From Flavobacterium indicum GPTSA100-9 = DSM 17447 (GTDB taxonomy: Bacteria > Bacteroidota > Bacteroidia > Flavobacteriales > Flavobacteriaceae), in contig NC_017025.1 in the NCBI RefSeq assembly GCF_000455605.1, positions 1-64,000 on the forward strand: a stretch of DNA of 64,000 bases. Direction: 5' to 3'. The notes under the pieces are model-generated. The model was not told the origin of the DNA, made no database searches, and saw only the letters and a list, made by a program, of their open reading frames with translations. Shown here piece after piece: positions 8,491-16,781 of the stretch. Position 1 is the first letter of the stretch. Every line of letters starts with the position of its first letter. The position numbers were made by a program, and so were the translations under genes.

Positions 8491-9991
8491 ATAATGTAGC
8501 TATAGCTTTCTCAATTCGTTTTATTGTTTCGGCTTTTCCTATCATTTCAATAATATCAAACAAGTGTGGTCCTTTTAAAGCTCCTACTAAGCTTAAACGT
8601 AACGGTTGCATTACTTTACCCATTCCAATTTCATTCGTCGTCATCCATTCTTTTAAAAGTGTTTCAATATTTACAGAAGTAAAATCTTCAATCTTTTCTA
8701 ATTCTGAAATCACTTGTTGCATTAAACTTGGCGTTTCTTCTTTCCAGTTTTTAGTCGCTTTTTCATCGTAAGATGTTGGCGCTTCAAAGAAATAGTCGGA
8801 TAAATCCCAAAATTCATTTACGAAATGTGCTCTTTCTTTAATCAAAGAAACCACTTTTGTTAAATCAAGAGCAGTTGAGATTCCTTTCTTTTCTACTATT
8901 TTTTTAAAGCTTGCTGCTAAATTTTCATCCGATTGTTTTTGTAAATATTGATGATTGAACCATTTGTTTTTCTCTGGGTCAAACTTCGCTCCTGCTTTAT
9001 GAATTCTTCCTAAATCGAATTTTTGTACCAATTCTTCTAATGAGAATATTTCTTGTTCCGTTCCGTCGTTCCAACCTAATAAGGCTAAAAAGTTTACTAC
9101 CGCTTCTGGGAAGAAACCATTTTCTCTATACCCCATCGATGTACCTTCTTCTGTTTTCCACTCTAATGGAAATACAGGGAATCCCATTTTATCACCATCA
9201 CGTTTTGATAATTTTCCATTACCAATTGGTTTTAAAATTAAAGGTAAATGTGCAAATTCAGGTGCTTCCCATTCAAATGCTTTATATAATAAATGGTGTA
9301 AAGGTAAACTAGGTAACCATTCTTCCCCACGTATTACATGCGATGTTTCCATTAAATGATCATCTACTATATTCGCTAAATGGTACGTTGGCATCCCATC
9401 TGATTTGAATAATACTTTATCATCTAATAAATTCGTGTCAAATTTTATGGTTCCACGTATAATGTCTTGTAATTCTAATAGTTCATTTACTGGAGTTTTA
9501 AATCGTACAACAAAATGTTCACCATTGGCAATACGCTCTTCTATTTTTTCACGTGAAACTGTTAAGGAATTATCTAATTGTTCTCTTACCGTATGATTAT
9601 AGATAAATGTTTTTCCTTCGGATTCGGCTTTTTTTCTTAATTCATCTAATTTCTCCGCTGTGTCAAATGCGTAATAAGCCCAACCTTTTTCAATTAATTC
9701 ATCAGCATATTGTTTATACATAGCTTTACGTTCACTTTGTCGGTAAGGTCCAAATTTTTCATTCTTTCCTACGGTCTCATCAGGAGCAATTCCTAACCAT
9801 TCTAAAGCTTCAAATATATAAGCTTCTGCACCTGGAACAAATCGAGTTTGATCGGTATCTTCTATTCTTAAGTAAAATACACCATTATGTTTTTTTGCAA
9901 ATAAATAATTGAATAAGGCTGTTCGTACACCTCCTATGTGCAAAGGTCCTGTTGGACTGGGTGCAAATCGAACTCTAACGGGTCTTGACAT
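8489..9991 (-). CDS. gltX: Glutamyl-tRNA synthetase
   Basis: Charges tRNA-Glu with glutamate. The start at 9991 gives 500 residues beginning MSRPVRVRFAPSPTGPLHIG, with the class I HIGH motif as HIGG. The KMSKS motif is KLSKRDGD (about 260-267). An upstream ATG at 10027 falls next to the -7 box at 10025-10032 and is unlikely to be used. The C-terminal helical anticodon-binding region is complete. It is divergent from the DUF4175 gene. The gene contains a degenerate parS-like 16-mer at 9545-9560. Confidence 0.97.
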   Translation of the reverse strand: MSRPVRVRFAPSPTGPLHIGGVRTALFNYLFAKKHNGVFYLRIEDTDQTRFVPGAEAYIFEALEWLGIAPDETVGKNEKFGPYRQSERKAMYKQYADELIEKGWAYYAFDTAEKLDELRKKAESEGKTFIYNHTVREQLDNSLTVSREKIEERIANGEHFVVRFKTPVNELLELQDIIRGTIKFDTNLLDDKVLFKSDGMPTYHLANIVDDHLMETSHVIRGEEWLPSLPLHHLLYKAFEWEAPEFAHLPLILKPIGNGKLSKRDGDKMGFPVFPLEWKTEEGTSMGYRENGFFPEAVVNFLALLGWNDGTEQEIFSLEELVQKFDLGRIHKAGAKFDPEKNKWFNHQYLQKQSDENLAASFKKIVEKKGISTALDLTKVVSLIKERAHFVNEFWDLSDYFFEAPTSYDEKATKNWKEETPSLMQQVISELEKIEDFTSVNIETLLKEWMTTNEIGMGKVMQPLRLSLVGALKGPHLFDIIEMIGKAETIKRIEKAIATL

Positions 9992-10173: not shown

Positions 10174-13100
10174 ATGGTTGAAAAAAAATCGATTATTTAC
10201 GATAAATTAGAAAGCTTTATCAAAAAGTATTACACGAATGAGCTAATAAAAGGAAGTTTACTTTTTATAGCTATTGGCTTGTTATACTTCATTTTTACTT
10301 TTCTAATTGAATATGTATTTTGGTTTTCTACATCAGGAAGAAGTATTTTATTTTGGTCTTTTGTTATCATTGAATGTTTGTTGCTGTTTAAATTTATTGC
10401 GATTCCATTATTTAAATTGTTTAAACTTCAAAAAGGAATTAACTATGAAGAAGCTTCTGTTATAATTGGTAATCACTTTTCTGATGTTAAGGATAAATTA
10501 CTGAATTTTTTACAGTTATCAACTGTAACGCAACCCTCTGAATTAGTATTAGCTTCTATTGATCAGAAAGCTGAGAACCTTCAACCTATTCCATTTTCTA
10601 ATGCTATCAATTTTAAAAAGAATTCACGTTTTTTACCTTATGCCATTATACCAGTATTGGTGATTCTTTTCTTTTATTTTTCGGGTAATGCTGATATTGT
10701 TTCTAATAGTTTTAATCGTGTAGTAGCTTACAATCAAAATTTTGCTAAACCTGCTCCTTTTCGTTTTATAATTGAAACCAATCCGTTACTTGTGGAACAA
10801 AACCAATCGTTTCAATTAAAAGTAAAAACAGTGGGTTCTATTCAACCAGAGAACGTTTCTATAGTTATTAATAATGAAACTTATTTTTTAGAAAGTGAAC
10901 AACCAGGCTTTTTTACCTATACTTTTCAAAATGTTCAACATGATATTCGTTTTCATTTATTAGCAAACGAAATAACGTCTAAAGATTTTACTTTAAAAGT
11001 GGTTAACGTTCCAACCATTTCTTCATTTGCTATGAAATTGGTTTATCCTTCACATTTAGGTAAAACTTCTGAAGTCATTAAAGGCACGGGTAATGCTGTT
11101 GTTCCAGAAGGGACTCAAGTATTTTGGGTGTTGAATACCTTAGCTACGACTTCAGTGCATTATATAGAAAATAGTTTGTTTACTAATTTTACACCAACCT
11201 CTAATCAATTCCATTATTCTAAAATTATTAAAAAGAATACCGATTATGAGATAGCTATTTCTAATAAGCAATTGAAAGACTACGAAAAATTACAATATAA
11301 GTTAACGATTCTAAAAGATCAATATCCCTCTATTTCTGTTACTGCTGCTCCAGATAGTTTAAAATTAAAACAACCTGTTGCTATCGGTCAAGTTTCTGAT
11401 GATTATGGAATGTCTGCTTTACAAGTGGTATATTATGATGTTACTAAACCTACTGTTCGTTTTAAAAAATCCATTGCTATTAAAAATAAGTTAGTAGATC
11501 AATTTATCTATTCTTTTCCTGATGGTTTAACCCTAAAACCGGGTGTAACTTACGAATATTATTTTGAAGTATTTGATAATGATGTAGTTAATGGAAGAAA
11601 ATCATCAAAATCTGAAATTTTTGGTCATAAAGAATTAACATCTGAACAAAAAGAACAAAAAGCTCTTCAGGAACAACAATCTACAATTAGTAGTTTACAA
11701 AAAACATTAGATTCTCAAGATAAACAATTGGATGCTTTGGACAATTTAAAAAAATTAGACAAACAAAAAGAAAATCTAGATTATAAAGACCAAAAAAAGA
11801 TAGAAGATTTTATTAATCGTCAAAAACAGCAACAAGATATGATGCAAGAATTCTCTGAGAAGATGAAAGAGAATTTAGAAATTTTTAAATCAGATAAAAA
11901 TGACGAATTCAAAAAAGAGTTGTTAGAGCGTTTAGAAAAATCGGATAAAGATGCTGCTAAAAATGAAAAGTTATTGAAAGAACTAGAAGAGCTAACTAGA
12001 AAATTGCAAAAAGAAGAGTTGTTTGAAAAAGCCGATCAATTGAAACAACAAGCCAAAGCGCAACAGAAATCGTTAGAGCAATTAGTAGAGTTAACTAAAC
12101 GATTTTACGTGGAACAAAAAGCTGAACAATTAGTTGAGAAGTTAGATAAATTAGCTGATAAACAAGATAAGCTCTCTGATAAAAATTCCAATTCCTTAGA
12201 AGAACAGCAAAAACTTTCTAAGGAATTTGATGCCATCAAAAATGAATTAAATGAGTTAGAAAAAGAAAATAAAGAATTAAAAACACCAATGGATATTCCT
12301 AATGATAAGGGAGAGCAACAAGATGTAGATCAACAACAGCAAAAAGCGGAAGATAATTTACAAAAAAACAATACCTCTGCTGCTAAAAAAAATCAAAAAT
12401 CGGCTGCTCAAAAAATGAAAGAAATGGGTAAGAAAATTAGCAATTCTATGTCTACCGGTGAAATGGCTGAAAATGCAGAAGATGCTAAAGCATTACGTCA
12501 AATTTTAGATAATTTATTAACCTTTTCTTTTGATGAAGAAAAATTATTAAAACAATTTAAACAAGTTAAAAACTCAAAAACTTCTATCAATTCTCTATTA
12601 AAAAAACAACAAGAATTGAAAGTACAATTTAAGCATATTGATGATAGTATTTTTGCTTTAGCTTTACGTCAACCCAAATTGTCAGATATTGTTTTAAAAG
12701 AAGTTGAAGAAGTACATTATAATTTAGATAAAGCTTTAGAATTTTTACCATCATCTAATTTATACAAAGGAATATCACATCAACAATTTGTTTTATCCTC
12801 TGCCAATAAATTAGCAGATTTTCTAAGTAATGTGCAAAGCGATATGAATATGTCCATGAGTAGTTCCTCAGGAGGTAAAGGTAAACCGAAACCAGGTCAA
12901 GGTTCAGGGCAACAATTATCAGATATTATTCAAAAGCAAAAAGGCTTAGGCGAACAAATGAAAGAAGGTATGCCTAAACCGGGAGAAGGTAAGAAACCGG
13001 GTGAAGGAAAAAAGCCAGGTGAAACTGGTAAAAGCGGACAAGGTTCTTCTGGTAACGATGGTGAAGGTGATGCTGGTAAATTGTTAGAAATCCTTAAACA

Positions 13101-13470
13101 GCAACAAGATTTACGTGAAGCTTTGCAAAATGAATTGGATAAACAAGGTTTAGGAGGCAACGGTCAAAATGCGTTACAAAAAATGAAAGAATTGGAAAAG
13201 CAATTAATAAATAAAGGTTTTACACAAGAGAATGTGAATCGTGCTTTACAAATTAATCACGAACTTTTAAAATTAGAGCATGCGATGAAACAGCAAGGAC
13301 AGGATAACAAACGGGAATCAAATACAAATGCAAAGGATTATTTAGGTTCTAATAAACCCTTACCTCCTGCTCTATTAAATTATTTAAAAAGTGTTGAAAT
13401 ATTAAATAGACAAAGCTTACCTTTGCAGCCCAATTTTAATCAAAAAGTACAAACGTATTTTAAAAACTAA
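10174..13470 (+). CDS. DUF4175 family large membrane/coiled-coil protein
   Basis: A 1098-residue protein. Two or three membrane segments lie near the N-terminus (about 25-50, 55-80 and 150-168). A beta-rich extracytoplasmic segment follows (about 185-480). The rest is a very long charged coiled coil (about 490-760) and a low-complexity tail rich in Gly, Lys, Pro and Gln (about 905-975, with GEGKKPGEGKK-type repeats). The function is unknown. In Bacteroidota this family commonly precedes ybeY and mnmG, as here. Its stop codon overlaps the ybeY start (TAATG), so the two are probably translationally coupled. Confidence 0.85.
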   Translation: MVEKKSIIYDKLESFIKKYYTNELIKGSLLFIAIGLLYFIFTFLIEYVFWFSTSGRSILFWSFVIIECLLLFKFIAIPLFKLFKLQKGINYEEASVIIGNHFSDVKDKLLNFLQLSTVTQPSELVLASIDQKAENLQPIPFSNAINFKKNSRFLPYAIIPVLVILFFYFSGNADIVSNSFNRVVAYNQNFAKPAPFRFIIETNPLLVEQNQSFQLKVKTVGSIQPENVSIVINNETYFLESEQPGFFTYTFQNVQHDIRFHLLANEITSKDFTLKVVNVPTISSFAMKLVYPSHLGKTSEVIKGTGNAVVPEGTQVFWVLNTLATTSVHYIENSLFTNFTPTSNQFHYSKIIKKNTDYEIAISNKQLKDYEKLQYKLTILKDQYPSISVTAAPDSLKLKQPVAIGQVSDDYGMSALQVVYYDVTKPTVRFKKSIAIKNKLVDQFIYSFPDGLTLKPGVTYEYYFEVFDNDVVNGRKSSKSEIFGHKELTSEQKEQKALQEQQSTISSLQKTLDSQDKQLDALDNLKKLDKQKENLDYKDQKKIEDFINRQKQQQDMMQEFSEKMKENLEIFKSDKNDEFKKELLERLEKSDKDAAKNEKLLKELEELTRKLQKEELFEKADQLKQQAKAQQKSLEQLVELTKRFYVEQKAEQLVEKLDKLADKQDKLSDKNSNSLEEQQKLSKEFDAIKNELNELEKENKELKTPMDIPNDKGEQQDVDQQQQKAEDNLQKNNTSAAKKNQKSAAQKMKEMGKKISNSMSTGEMAENAEDAKALRQILDNLLTFSFDEEKLLKQFKQVKNSKTSINSLLKKQQELKVQFKHIDDSIFALALRQPKLSDIVLKEVEEVHYNLDKALEFLPSSNLYKGISHQQFVLSSANKLADFLSNVQSDMNMSMSSSSGGKGKPKPGQGSGQQLSDIIQKQKGLGEQMKEGMPKPGEGKKPGEGKKPGETGKSGQGSSGNDGEGDAGKLLEILKQQQDLREALQNELDKQGLGGNGQNALQKMKELEKQLINKGFTQENVNRALQINHELLKLEHAMKQQGQDNKRESNTNAKDYLGSNKPLPPALLNYLKSVEILNRQSLPLQPNFNQKVQTYFKN

Positions 13471-13889
13471 TGATACTATTTAATTACGAATCTGATTTTA
13501 TTTTAACTAATGAGGAAAACTATAGTAATTGGATTTCTAGAATTATTGAATCTGAAGACTATATAATTGGTGAAATAAATTATATTTTTTGTGACGATGA
13601 ATATTTACACGCTATTAATGTTCAATATTTAAATCACGATACTTTAACTGATATTATTAGTTTTGATTATACGGAAGGTAAAGTTATTTCTGGTGATATT
13701 TTTATTTCAACAGAACGTGTTCGAGATAACGCAAATGATTTTAATGTTTCGTTTGATGAAGAATTAAAACGTGTCATGGCACATGGTGTTTTACATTACT
13801 GTGGGTATAAAGATAAATCTGATTCAGACGCACAATTAATGCGTAAAAAAGAAGAAGAAAAAATTAACTTGTTCCACGTGGAACAATAG
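13470..13889 (+). CDS. ybeY: YbeY endoribonuclease / rRNA maturation factor
   Basis: Metal-dependent RNase that acts in 16S rRNA 3'-end maturation and ribosome quality control. The 139 residues and the C-terminal zinc motif HGVLHYCGYKDKSD identify it. The usual H-x3-H-x5-H reads H-x3-H-x5-D here, so the third His ligand is replaced by Asp. The start codon overlaps the DUF4175 stop by one base. The last codons (LFHVEQ) are encoded by a parS-like palindrome, so the C-terminal end doubles as a probable ParB site. Confidence 0.92.
   Translation: MILFNYESDFILTNEENYSNWISRIIESEDYIIGEINYIFCDDEYLHAINVQYLNHDTLTDIISFDYTEGKVISGDIFISTERVRDNANDFNVSFDEELKRVMAHGVLHYCGYKDKSDSDAQLMRKKEEEKINLFHVEQ
13870..13885. 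promoter_or_regulatory. parS-like site A (TGTTCCACGTGGAACA)
   Basis: Perfect 16-bp palindrome, matching the widely conserved ParB/Spo0J-binding consensus TGTTnCACGTGnAACA. It overlaps the 3' end of ybeY. Confidence 0.85.
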
Positions 13890-13913
13890 TTAAACAGCTA
13901 ATCTTTTCTTTTA

Positions 13914-13929
13914 TGTTCCACGTGGAACA
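13914..13929. promoter_or_regulatory. parS-like site B (TGTTCCACGTGGAACA)
   Basis: A second perfect copy, identical to site A, in the ybeY-mnmG spacer. Centre-to-centre distance to site A is 44 bp. Confidence 0.85.
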
Positions 13930-13956
13930 TAAAAGAAATTTTATATTAATATTAAA

Positions 13957-13972
13957 TGTTTCACGTGGAACA
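13957..13972. promoter_or_regulatory. parS-like site C (TGTTTCACGTGGAACA)
   Basis: The palindrome core is intact with one asymmetric base. It ends at the base immediately before the mnmG ATG (13973), so it occupies the whole position where a ribosome-binding site would lie. Centre-to-centre distance to site B is 43 bp. Confidence 0.85.
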
Positions 13973-15850
13973 ATGAGTTTATTTCAAAATACATATGATG
14001 TTATTGTAGTGGGTGGTGGCCATGCTGGTTGTGAGGCTGCTGCTGCTGCTGCTAATATGGGTTGTTCAACCCTTTTGGTTACCATGAATCTTCAGAATAT
14101 TGCTCAAATGTCTTGCAACCCAGCCATGGGTGGTATTGCAAAAGGGCAAATCGTTCGAGAAATTGATGCGTTGGGTGGTTATTCTGGAATTGTTTCTGAT
14201 AAAACAGCCATTCAATTTAAAATGTTGAATCTTTCCAAAGGTCCTGCAATGTGGTCTCCTCGTTGTCAGAGTGACCGTATGCGTTTTGCAGAAGAATGGC
14301 GTTTGATGTTAGAAGGTACTCCTAATTTAGATTTTTATCAAGAGATGGTTTCTGGTATCATAACCGAAGGAAATCGTATTGTTGGAGTTCGTACTTCTTT
14401 AGGTGTGGAAATAAAAGCTAAAACGGTTGTTTTGACTAATGGTACTTTTTTAAATGGTTTAATTCATATTGGTGAAAAACAATTTGGTGGTGGCCGTGCT
14501 GGTGAAAGCGCTTCTTTCGGAATTACAGAAGATTTACAAGCTTTAGGTTTTGAATCGGGAAGAATGAAAACAGGAACGCCTCCTCGTGTGGATGGTCGTT
14601 CTTTAGATTTTTCAAAAATGACAGAGCAACCTGGTGATGTGAATCCTTCTAAATTTTCCTATTCAGATGTGACACAACCATTAAAACACCAACGTTCTTG
14701 TTACATGTCTTATACTTCTGAAGTAGTACATGATTTATTACGAGAAGGTTTTGATCGTAGTCCTATGTTTAATGGAAGAATAAAAAGTATAGGTCCACGT
14801 TATTGCCCGTCTATTGAAGATAAAATTAATCGTTTTGCAGATAAAGACAGACATCAGTTGTTTGTAGAACCAGAAGGTTGGAATACGGTTGAGTTTTATA
14901 TTAATGGTTTTTCTACTTCATTACCAGAAGATGTTCAGTTTAGAGCTCTACGTTCTGTGCCTGGTTTTGAAAATGTAAAATTCTTTAGGCCGGGTTATGC
15001 TATTGAATACGATTACTTCCCTCCTACACAATTAAAACATACCTTAGAAACTAAATTAATTGATGGTTTATTTTTTGCTGGACAAATTAATGGAACTACG
15101 GGATATGAAGAAGCGGCTTCACAAGGATTAATGGCGGGTATTAATGCAGCTTTAAAAGTTAAAGAACAAGACCCGTTTATTTTAAAACGTGACGAGGCCT
15201 ACATTGGAGTTTTAATTGATGATTTAATTACTAAGGGAACGGAAGAGCCGTATCGTATGTTTACTTCACGTGCAGAATATAGAACACTTTTACGTCAGGA
15301 TAATGCAGATTTACGATTAACACCAAAAGGATTTGCAATAGGTTTAGCCAAAGAAGATCGTTTACGTAGAATGGAATATAAACGTGATGCCTCTGATGCT
15401 TTCTTAACCTTTTTTAAAGAAACAAGTTTAAAACCTGATGAAGCCAATCCTGTTTTAGTAGAAAAAGGATCATCACCTATGTCGCAACCCGACAAAATGT
15501 ATAAGGTGTTTTCTCGTCCGCAATTAGATTTAGAAGATTTTATAAAATTTGAAAAAGTGGCCAATTATATTCAAGAGCATAATTTAGATTCTGAAATTAT
15601 TGAGCAAGCCGAGATTCAAGTTAAGTATGCGGGTTATATAGAAAAAGAAAAAAATCATGCAGATAAAGTCAATCGATTAGAAGATGTAATGATTCCTTCT
15701 AATTTTGATTTTGATAAAATAAAGTCAATTTCTATTGAAGCACGACAAAAACTAAATAAAATTCGTCCCACAACAATTGCACAGGCTTCTCGTATTAGTG
15801 GCGTGTCTCCTAGTGACATTTCTGTGCTTTTAATTTATATGGGTAGATAA
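13973..15850 (+). CDS. mnmG: tRNA uridine-5-carboxymethylaminomethyl modification enzyme MnmG (GidA)
   Basis: FAD-dependent partner of MnmE that installs the 5-carboxymethylaminomethyl group at wobble U34 of several tRNAs. The start at 13973 (MSLFQNTYDVIVVGGGHAGC) gives 625 residues, the family length. A longer frame from 13913 would translate parS DNA and is rejected. The FAD dinucleotide fold is at 10-35 (VVGGGHAGCEAAAAAANMG). The conserved SCNPAMGGIAKG and YCPSIEDK motifs are present, and the C-terminal helical domain is intact. The gene is bracketed by parS-like sites at both ends. No Shine-Dalgarno sequence is visible. Confidence 0.97.
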   Translation: MSLFQNTYDVIVVGGGHAGCEAAAAAANMGCSTLLVTMNLQNIAQMSCNPAMGGIAKGQIVREIDALGGYSGIVSDKTAIQFKMLNLSKGPAMWSPRCQSDRMRFAEEWRLMLEGTPNLDFYQEMVSGIITEGNRIVGVRTSLGVEIKAKTVVLTNGTFLNGLIHIGEKQFGGGRAGESASFGITEDLQALGFESGRMKTGTPPRVDGRSLDFSKMTEQPGDVNPSKFSYSDVTQPLKHQRSCYMSYTSEVVHDLLREGFDRSPMFNGRIKSIGPRYCPSIEDKINRFADKDRHQLFVEPEGWNTVEFYINGFSTSLPEDVQFRALRSVPGFENVKFFRPGYAIEYDYFPPTQLKHTLETKLIDGLFFAGQINGTTGYEEAASQGLMAGINAALKVKEQDPFILKRDEAYIGVLIDDLITKGTEEPYRMFTSRAEYRTLLRQDNADLRLTPKGFAIGLAKEDRLRRMEYKRDASDAFLTFFKETSLKPDEANPVLVEKGSSPMSQPDKMYKVFSRPQLDLEDFIKFEKVANYIQEHNLDSEIIEQAEIQVKYAGYIEKEKNHADKVNRLEDVMIPSNFDFDKIKSISIEARQKLNKIRPTTIAQASRISGVSPSDISVLLIYMGR

Positions 15851-15870
15851 TTTACTAATTAATAATTTTA

Positions 15871-15886
15871 CGTTCCACGTGAAACA
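15871..15886. promoter_or_regulatory. parS-like site D (CGTTCCACGTGAAACA)
   Basis: A 15/16 match to TGTTCCACGTGAAACA, 20 bp after the mnmG stop in the spacer before the methyltransferase gene. Confidence 0.8.
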
Positions 15887-15932
15887 ACCGTGTGAAGCAT
15901 TATAAATACTATAAATAACAAAAAACAACTAA

Positions 15933-16781
15933 ATGCAGTTTTCAGAAGAAAATCAATATTTATTAGTTAAAGATTATTCGGTTTCTAAAGAAACCTTTTC
16001 TTTATTATACAATAAAGAATACGATTTATTAAAAACCTACCCTACGCCCTCTTTAGATGTTTTGGGTAAATATTACGAAAGTGAGGATTATATATCTCAT
16101 ACGGATAGTAAACGTACTTTGTTTGAAAAATTATATCATTTTGTGAAAGTTAGAGCCATTAAAAGTAAAGTAGCTTTAATTACAAAAGAAAATTCATCAA
16201 AAGGAAATTTACTGGATATAGGTGCAGGAACAGGTGATTTTTTAACAGAAGCTAAAAACCAAGGTTGGACCACTTTAGGTTATGAACCCAATGCTTCTGC
16301 TAAAACGCTTGCTGAAAATAAAGGCGTTGTTTTTACTGATGATATTTTTGTGTTACCTAATGCAAGCTTTGATGTAATTACAATGTGGCATGTATTAGAA
16401 CATGTACCCAATTTAGAGGAATACATCGCCAATTTAAAAAGATTGCTGAAACCTGGCGGTACAATTATTATTGCTGTTCCAAATTATAAATCTTTTGATG
16501 CGCAGTACTACGGTCGTTTTTGGGCTGCTTATGATGTGCCTCGCCATTTATGGCATTTTTCTAAAACAAGTATACAAAGACTTTTTTCTGATCACGATTT
16601 AAAATTGTTTCACGTGAAACCTATGTGGTTTGATAGTTTTTATGTGAGTATGCTTTCAGAAAAATATAAAACAGGAAAAATGAGTTTGATTAAAGGAGGT
16701 TTCATTGGTTTACGCTCAAATGTGTCTGGAATCTTTAAAAAAGAGTTTTCATCGCACATTTACATCATTAAAAACAACTAA
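15933..16781 (+). CDS. Class I SAM-dependent methyltransferase
   Basis: A 282-residue cytoplasmic methyltransferase. SAM-binding motif I is LLDIGAGTGDF (about 93-103), followed by the acidic GYEPN loop. The post-motif region ITMWHVLEHVPNLEEYIANLKRLLKPGG is typical of the Methyltransf_23/UbiG-like group. The substrate is unknown. It follows mnmG by 82 bp and may be co-transcribed. A parS-like site lies within the coding sequence near codon 227. The 214-bp spacer after it shows no clear terminator. Confidence 0.85.
   Translation: MQFSEENQYLLVKDYSVSKETFSLLYNKEYDLLKTYPTPSLDVLGKYYESEDYISHTDSKRTLFEKLYHFVKVRAIKSKVALITKENSSKGNLLDIGAGTGDFLTEAKNQGWTTLGYEPNASAKTLAENKGVVFTDDIFVLPNASFDVITMWHVLEHVPNLEEYIANLKRLLKPGGTIIIAVPNYKSFDAQYYGRFWAAYDVPRHLWHFSKTSIQRLFSDHDLKLFHVKPMWFDSFYVSMLSEKYKTGKMSLIKGGFIGLRSNVSGIFKKEFSSHIYIIKNN
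16606..16621. promoter_or_regulatory. parS-like site E (TGTTTCACGTGAAACC)
   Basis: A 15/16 match to TGTTTCACGTGAAACA, inside the methyltransferase gene, where it encodes LFHVKP. Intragenic parS sites are usual for ParB systems. Confidence 0.75.

Follow-up and report, generated by a model that had tools for sequence, protein, structure and literature searches.

The only core parS sites of a Flavobacterium-like genome bracket mnmG near the GC-skew minimum and very probably form its chromosomal centromere

The window analysed here is a stretch of 64,000 nucleotides at the start of the single contig (2,993,089 bp) that makes up the genome. It carries mnmG (gidA) between ybeY and a methyltransferase gene, with five 16-bp parS-like sites in and between these genes (Table 1). 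The mnmG start codon is our choice, relatives aligning from residue 1–8 on; the list of open reading frames has the start at 13913. A scan for sigma-70 promoters around mnmG gave 12 matches versus 16.7 expected.

Table 1. Genes and parS-like sites at the mnmG locus (window coordinates)
Feature	Coordinates	Strand	Remarks
Weak parS-like site, TTTTTCACGTGAAACT	9545..9560	.	2 mismatches; inside gltX; excluded from the parS count
ybeY, endoribonuclease	13470..13889	+	Pfam PF02130
parS1, TGTTCCACGTGGAACA	13870..13885	.	in the final ybeY codons; protein end ...LFHVEQ
parS2, TGTTCCACGTGGAACA	13914..13929	.	ybeY–mnmG gap; centre of a perfect 34-bp palindrome (13905–13938); also a match of the terminator-like scan
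parS3, TGTTTCACGTGGAACA	13957..13972	.	immediately before the proposed mnmG start codon (ATG 13973)
mnmG (gidA), tRNA modification enzyme	13973..15850	+	Pfam PF01134; bracketed by parS
parS4, CGTTCCACGTGAAACA	15871..15886	.	begins 21 bp past the mnmG stop codon
Class I methyltransferase gene	15933..16781	+	Pfam PF13489
parS5, TGTTTCACGTGAAACC	16606..16621	.	within the methyltransferase gene, encoding LFHVKP

A sequence-only reading of this DNA had picked out the five 16-mers as matching a parS-like motif at 15 or 16 positions, and a motif scan of the whole window recovered them as described. parS1, parS2 and parS3 match TGTTNCACGTGNAACA at all 16 specified positions, while parS4 and parS5 match at 15, the single mismatch being an outermost base in each; the cluster spans 13870–16621. 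At up to three mismatches, the window holds 18 matches to TGTTNCACGTGNAACA versus 3.78 expected, and the maximum in 100 shuffles was 9. For the core 14-mer GTTNCACGTGNAAC, a first-order Markov model based on the window gives an expectation of 0.0023 per 64 kb, or 0.11 per genome. The whole genome contains five copies, all within 2.8 kb in the mnmG cluster, and the reversed control pattern is absent. Only one other 16-mer of the genome comes within one mismatch of the motif; it lies at 2,352,005 and has no CACGTG centre. A chance origin of the cluster is ruled out by the shuffles, the Markov expectation and the genome-wide uniqueness of the core, in agreement with what the sequence-only reading had asserted, and the genome-wide count that it proposed shows a motif confined to one cluster rather than scattered.

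That reading also depended on the genome having a ParB gene, and one is present. A single ParB_N match was detected (115 bits), in a gene at 2,242,625–2,243,521, and parA lies directly upstream, so that the two appear to form a parA–parB operon. The ParB protein carries the CTPase domain and HTH of a chromosomal ParABS system and contains GERRLRAS, which we take to be the CTP-binding motif. It is similar to ParB proteins of solved structures (7bnk, E 5.1e-52; Spo0J 6sdk, E 5.4e-45) and exceeds the cut-off of the NCBIfam model parB_part; the top-scoring NCBIfam model is Noc, below its cut-off (237.9 versus 315 bits). For ParA, none of the 25 NCBIfam models listed reached its cut-off, and the parA call relies on a Walker motif together with ParA-superfamily matches below cut-off. 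Proximity of parAB to parS is common, though not required, in chromosomal ParABS systems and is not seen here: parB lies 764 kb and dnaA (at 818 kb) 0.80 Mb from mnmG, each about a quarter of the chromosome, and rsmG (gidB) is at 2.53 Mb.

In order to place the replication origin, GC skew was computed from contiguous stretches that start at 2.825 Mb, cross the contig end and stop at 0.175 Mb, the contig being assumed circular. The cumulative skew has a local minimum at 2,990,235, and the parS sites lie 16.7–19.5 kb from it, parS1 being the nearest. The skew plot that the sequence-only reading had called for thus puts the minimum close to the locus, and mnmG, which it had regarded as an origin-proximal marker, is one in this genome. 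Across the chromosome, sampled as 20 evenly spaced 20-kb stretches, nine of the ten stretches in the first 1.5 Mb have positive skew, near zero in two cases, and eight of the ten beyond have negative skew. With the origin placed at parS, the half-versus-half skew contrast is 1.497, the maximum possible (permutation p=8e-5); the corresponding values are −0.136 for dnaA, 0.136 for parB and 0.698 for rsmG. None of dnaA, parAB and rsmG is close to the origin here, so they would have misled as origin markers. Next to the skew minimum, ORFs of 80 aa or more leave a gap of 579 bp (2,990,883–2,991,461; 16% GC), and this AT-rich gap may, as a guess, be taken as a candidate oriC. No DnaA-box cluster was found near the skew minimum, the perfect boxes being two single ones at distances of 4.6 and 12.5 kb.

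The motif recurs in close relatives. All 18 same-genus genomes have 3–10 sites with at most one mismatch, versus 0–2 for the reversed control; among the positions listed, not all of these sites are at mnmG, and some are without the CACGTG centre. A match is also present in 10 of 12 further genomes of the order. Among 80 named mnmG loci, the best 80 of at least 592 from an alignment of MnmG, 77 have a core site; only both Capnocytophaga loci and that of Tenacibaculum finnmarkense lack one in the stretch examined. The names of the nearest loci point to Bacteroidota (in the GTDB sense) as the phylum and to Flavobacterium or a close relative as the genus. The 80 loci hold 181 core sites (reversed control, 0), with up to eight sites per cluster: 103 in the 1 kb before mnmG, 72 in the 1.5 kb after the gene, none inside and six elsewhere. 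Many are close to the gene. Upstream, the distance from site start to mnmG match is within 50 bp for 57 of the 103; downstream, 40 of the 72 begin within 15 bp past the end of the match. Neighbouring upstream sites showed no helical phasing at 10.0–11 bp (Rayleigh p 0.31–0.62; 28 spacings of 34–162 bp, a 29th of 885 bp being excluded).

To extend the comparison to the phylum, 118 genomes were drawn evenly, 117 of them with mnmG; the sample is uneven by family, family f26 alone contributing 26 genomes, and its members are related by descent. A core site occurs in 111 of the 118 genomes, with 266 core sites in total versus 16 for the reversed control. The stretch examined around mnmG covered 1.5 kb per side in 30 genomes and up to 8 kb in 87, less at contig ends, and 244 of the 266 sites fall within it; one or more are present there in 106 of the 111 genomes with sites, the exceptions being G065, G092, G042, G062 and G137. 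Of these 244 sites, the 400 bp upstream of mnmG hold 104 and the 400 bp downstream 96; four are inside the gene and 40 farther away. Three of the four inside are at the extreme ends of the gene (G043, G129 and G124) and one is at +390 (G045). Counted by genome, 102 of 117 have a site within 400 bp outside mnmG, 42 of them on both sides; counted by family, 27 of 30 include one or more genomes with a site near mnmG (exceptions f16, f27 and f41). The side varies by family, being upstream only in f25 and both in 21 of the 26 f26 genomes, while f21, f22 and f32 have sites downstream only. An exact core is absent from six mnmG-bearing genomes, and in five of these (G061, G075, G110, G083 and G105, not G119) versions with one mismatch persist at the mnmG ends. 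This phylum-wide address of parS at mnmG, counted over 117 genomes, is new here. A site at a distance after mnmG similar to that of parS5 was found in G112.

The partner genes do not share this address. In all 20 single-contig genomes (four with rounded lengths), parB is separated from mnmG by 301 kb to 2.3 Mb, or 8–47% of the genome; dnaA is within 57 kb of mnmG in eight of them and rsmG within 2.1 kb in five.

Two known partners of ParB–parS in chromosome organisation, SMC and ScpA, were also sought. With all 23 candidates scored, the best SMC match in this genome reached 28 bits versus a cut-off of 567, and ScpA gave no match at E 0.001. With neither protein detected, the loading of Smc–ScpAB by ParB–parS would be impossible here in the standard way. 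In the phylum sample, ScpA was detected in 101 of 118 genomes and SMC exceeded its cut-off in 98 (five candidates scored per genome). The 20 genomes without an over-threshold SMC comprise 17 without ScpA and three (G052, G058 and G125) with strong partial SMC matches, probably from genes that are split or cut. The same 17 genomes, this one included, lack both ScpA and an over-threshold SMC: all 12 sampled from the family of the window, both of a second family of the order and three others of the class. All 17 retain parS at mnmG.

We conclude, with a probability of about 0.93, that the five sites together make up the chromosomal parS centromere in this Flavobacterium-like bacterium. The sequence-only reading had placed the chromosomal centromere in this window, and that view gains support from the only core sites of the genome lying near the skew minimum and from the single ParB gene beside parA. 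ParB dimers made from the parAB operon 0.76 Mb away would bind each palindrome, load there as clamps and spread by sliding into mnmG and the adjacent genes, forming one partition complex, and ParA would then move sister copies of the origin-proximal DNA apart. Placed near the origin, parS would be copied and segregated among the earliest parts of the chromosome. The cluster is probably a legacy of an ancestral group of origin genes with gidA, gidB, parA, parB and dnaA, of which mnmG would be the one still at the skew minimum here, together with parS. In sequence and function this is most likely an ordinary parS centromere; what is unusual is its gene-level address, its uncoupling from parAB and dnaA, and its occurrence in a genome without detectable SMC or ScpA.

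Palindromes also work as RNA, and the sites could be hairpins or terminators kept at both ends of mnmG for that reason. Many sites do lie directly before the start or directly after the stop of mnmG, a T-rich tail follows the perfect palindrome of parS2, and five terminator-like sites were found where 1.5 were expected, two of them at parS1 and parS2. The variable pair of the motif speaks against such a role. Over 380 sites of distinct context, oriented by mnmG and located outside the gene within 600 bp of it, the pair is T..A in 133, C..G in 127, C..A in 62 and T..G in 58. If the sites were selected as RNA, T..G (a U-G pair, which is tolerated) should outnumber the C..A mismatch, whereas the two are about equally frequent, with no clear bias by side (C..A versus T..G, upstream 26 versus 36, p 0.25; downstream 36 versus 22, p 0.09). 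This strand symmetry is as expected for a protein dimer on double-stranded DNA, unlike an RNA hairpin. In addition, the complementary arms extend at most one base past the 14-mer in 271 of the 380 sites, and the motif is that of a ParB site, almost absent elsewhere in the genomes, so that we regard the RNA explanation as scarcely credible. It is very unlikely, too, that the sites are operators through which ParB or another CACGTG-binding protein controls mnmG, with no centromere role. Such a role would suit a site that directly precedes the mnmG start codon in this genome and is found no more than 60 bp upstream of the gene in many relatives, but f21, f22 and f32 have their sites downstream only, clusters of up to eight sites exceed what an operator needs, and the genome has a single ParB match, beside parA, and no other core parS.

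A different choice concerns the link to mnmG, and it leaves the centromere explanation untouched. The linkage may reflect descent only, parS and mnmG both having stayed near the origin and mnmG having no role of its own, or parS–mnmG(–parS) may be a selected unit. Descent fits the listing of gidA in the ancestral origin gene cluster, in the part of that source compared (PMC2099444), and the continued closeness of rsmG to mnmG in a quarter of the single-contig genomes (5/20). It accounts less readily for the 200 of 244 sites that lie within 400 bp outside the mnmG ends instead of being spread over the stretch examined. Under selection, the centromere would need mnmG between or beside its sites, for example for its transcription, as a platform of fixed length for clamp sliding, or for control of mnmG by ParB. 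We favour mere descent, which we hold to be probable. The broader proposal, that parS–mnmG(–parS) is a selected functional unit across the phylum and also that ParB–parS in the lineages lacking SMC and ScpA segregates and organises the origin without Smc–ScpA, alone or with some other partner, seems to us rather unlikely as a whole.

A consensus parS palindrome is common to Bacillus subtilis, Caulobacter and Pseudomonas, in which parAB lies near the origin and parS. The present locus resembles these systems in its palindrome, its parA–parB pair and the clustering of sites near the origin, and differs from them in that parB is 0.76 Mb from mnmG and parS. In the parts consulted of a 2020 review, chromosomal ParABS systems are described as having parS sites clustered near the origin, at which ParB loads SMC (PMC7333895); unlike there, SMC and ScpA were not found in this genome. 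The genome differs likewise from the ancestral origin gene cluster, as far as that source was compared (PMC2099444): mnmG is near the skew minimum as in the ancestral arrangement, whereas dnaA, rsmG and parB, the genes that the comparison covers besides mnmG (yidC, yidD, rnpA, rpmH and dnaN being left out), are far from it.

The closest parallel is a study of Bacteroides caecimuris and Muribaculum intestinale, which, in the parts compared, reports ParABS with most parS sites clustered at the inferred origin, known condensins not found and an origin not always coincident with dnaA (PMC10197239). Our genome shares with these species ParABS, a parS cluster at the inferred origin and the lack of a detected SMC or ScpA. 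Those parts of the study make no mention of mnmG or of the distance to parB, and the mnmG link and the absence of SMC and ScpA are counted here over 117–118 genomes. Judged by titles, we found no paper describing parS at mnmG (gidA) in Bacteroidota, though the Livny 2007 survey may contain it.

Descriptions of parS usually place it near the origin; in 27 of the 30 families sampled here its address is at the level of a gene, with parB and often dnaA elsewhere. The 2020 review asks, in the part consulted, why parS sites are found near one another and what causes them to cluster (PMC7333895), and such an address offers a handle on these questions. The 17 genomes with parS and without SMC and ScpA are natural strains for studying the role of ParB–parS without the usual condensin. 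Should the skew result hold more widely, the origin of such genomes would be better marked by mnmG than by dnaA. We sampled ten 8-kb stretches in each of two others. In G146, the skew score is 0.06 for mnmG, −0.028 for dnaA and −0.113 for parB, with a maximum of 0.29 at 0.86–1.04 Mb. In G131, mnmG is at 1.59 Mb, the four stretches up to 1.43 Mb have negative skew, and the value at 1.75 Mb is 0.008; mnmG scores 0.509 versus −0.578 for dnaA, and the maximum of 0.578 falls at 1.88–2.14 Mb, not exactly at mnmG.

ScpA is present in 101 of the 118 genomes sampled from the phylum. Within this sample, neither ScpA nor an over-threshold SMC is found in the genomes of the window's own family (including the window's own genome, G000), in either of the two genomes sampled from another family in the same order, or in three further genomes of its class. 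This shared absence is apparently a joint loss.

In G000, an ORF-free gap adjoins the cumulative GC-skew minimum and is a possible oriC candidate; no DnaA-box cluster was found at this gap.

Within the window, parS2, which lies between ybeY and mnmG, is the centre of a longer perfect palindrome followed by a T-rich tail, a sequence arrangement that may give the palindrome a second role in ending the ybeY transcript.

Coordinates of the sequence features discussed
Feature	Position	Remarks
Perfect palindrome centred on parS2	window 13905-13938	34 bp, then T-rich tail
1098-aa protein, upstream of ybeY	window 10174-13470	sole Pfam match DUF4175, sub-threshold
ORF-free gap	G000:C1:2,990,883-2,991,461	579 bp, 16% GC; outside window

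Among the mnmG loci of relatives, L165, L167 and L174 each carry 6-7 parS sites upstream of mnmG. In genome G053, five parS sites lie at a contig edge (C1:261-559), apart from mnmG, a separation that probably reflects an assembly break. The gene for the 1098-aa protein was found again upstream of ybeY-mnmG in relatives. One in-frame TGA occurs within the mnmG match of G035 (C1:1025060-1026934). Loci L159 and L186 come from records that bear the titles Limnohabitans and Chitinophaga pinensis; their mnmG shares 80% identity with that of the window, and these records are probably mislabelled or contaminated MAGs.
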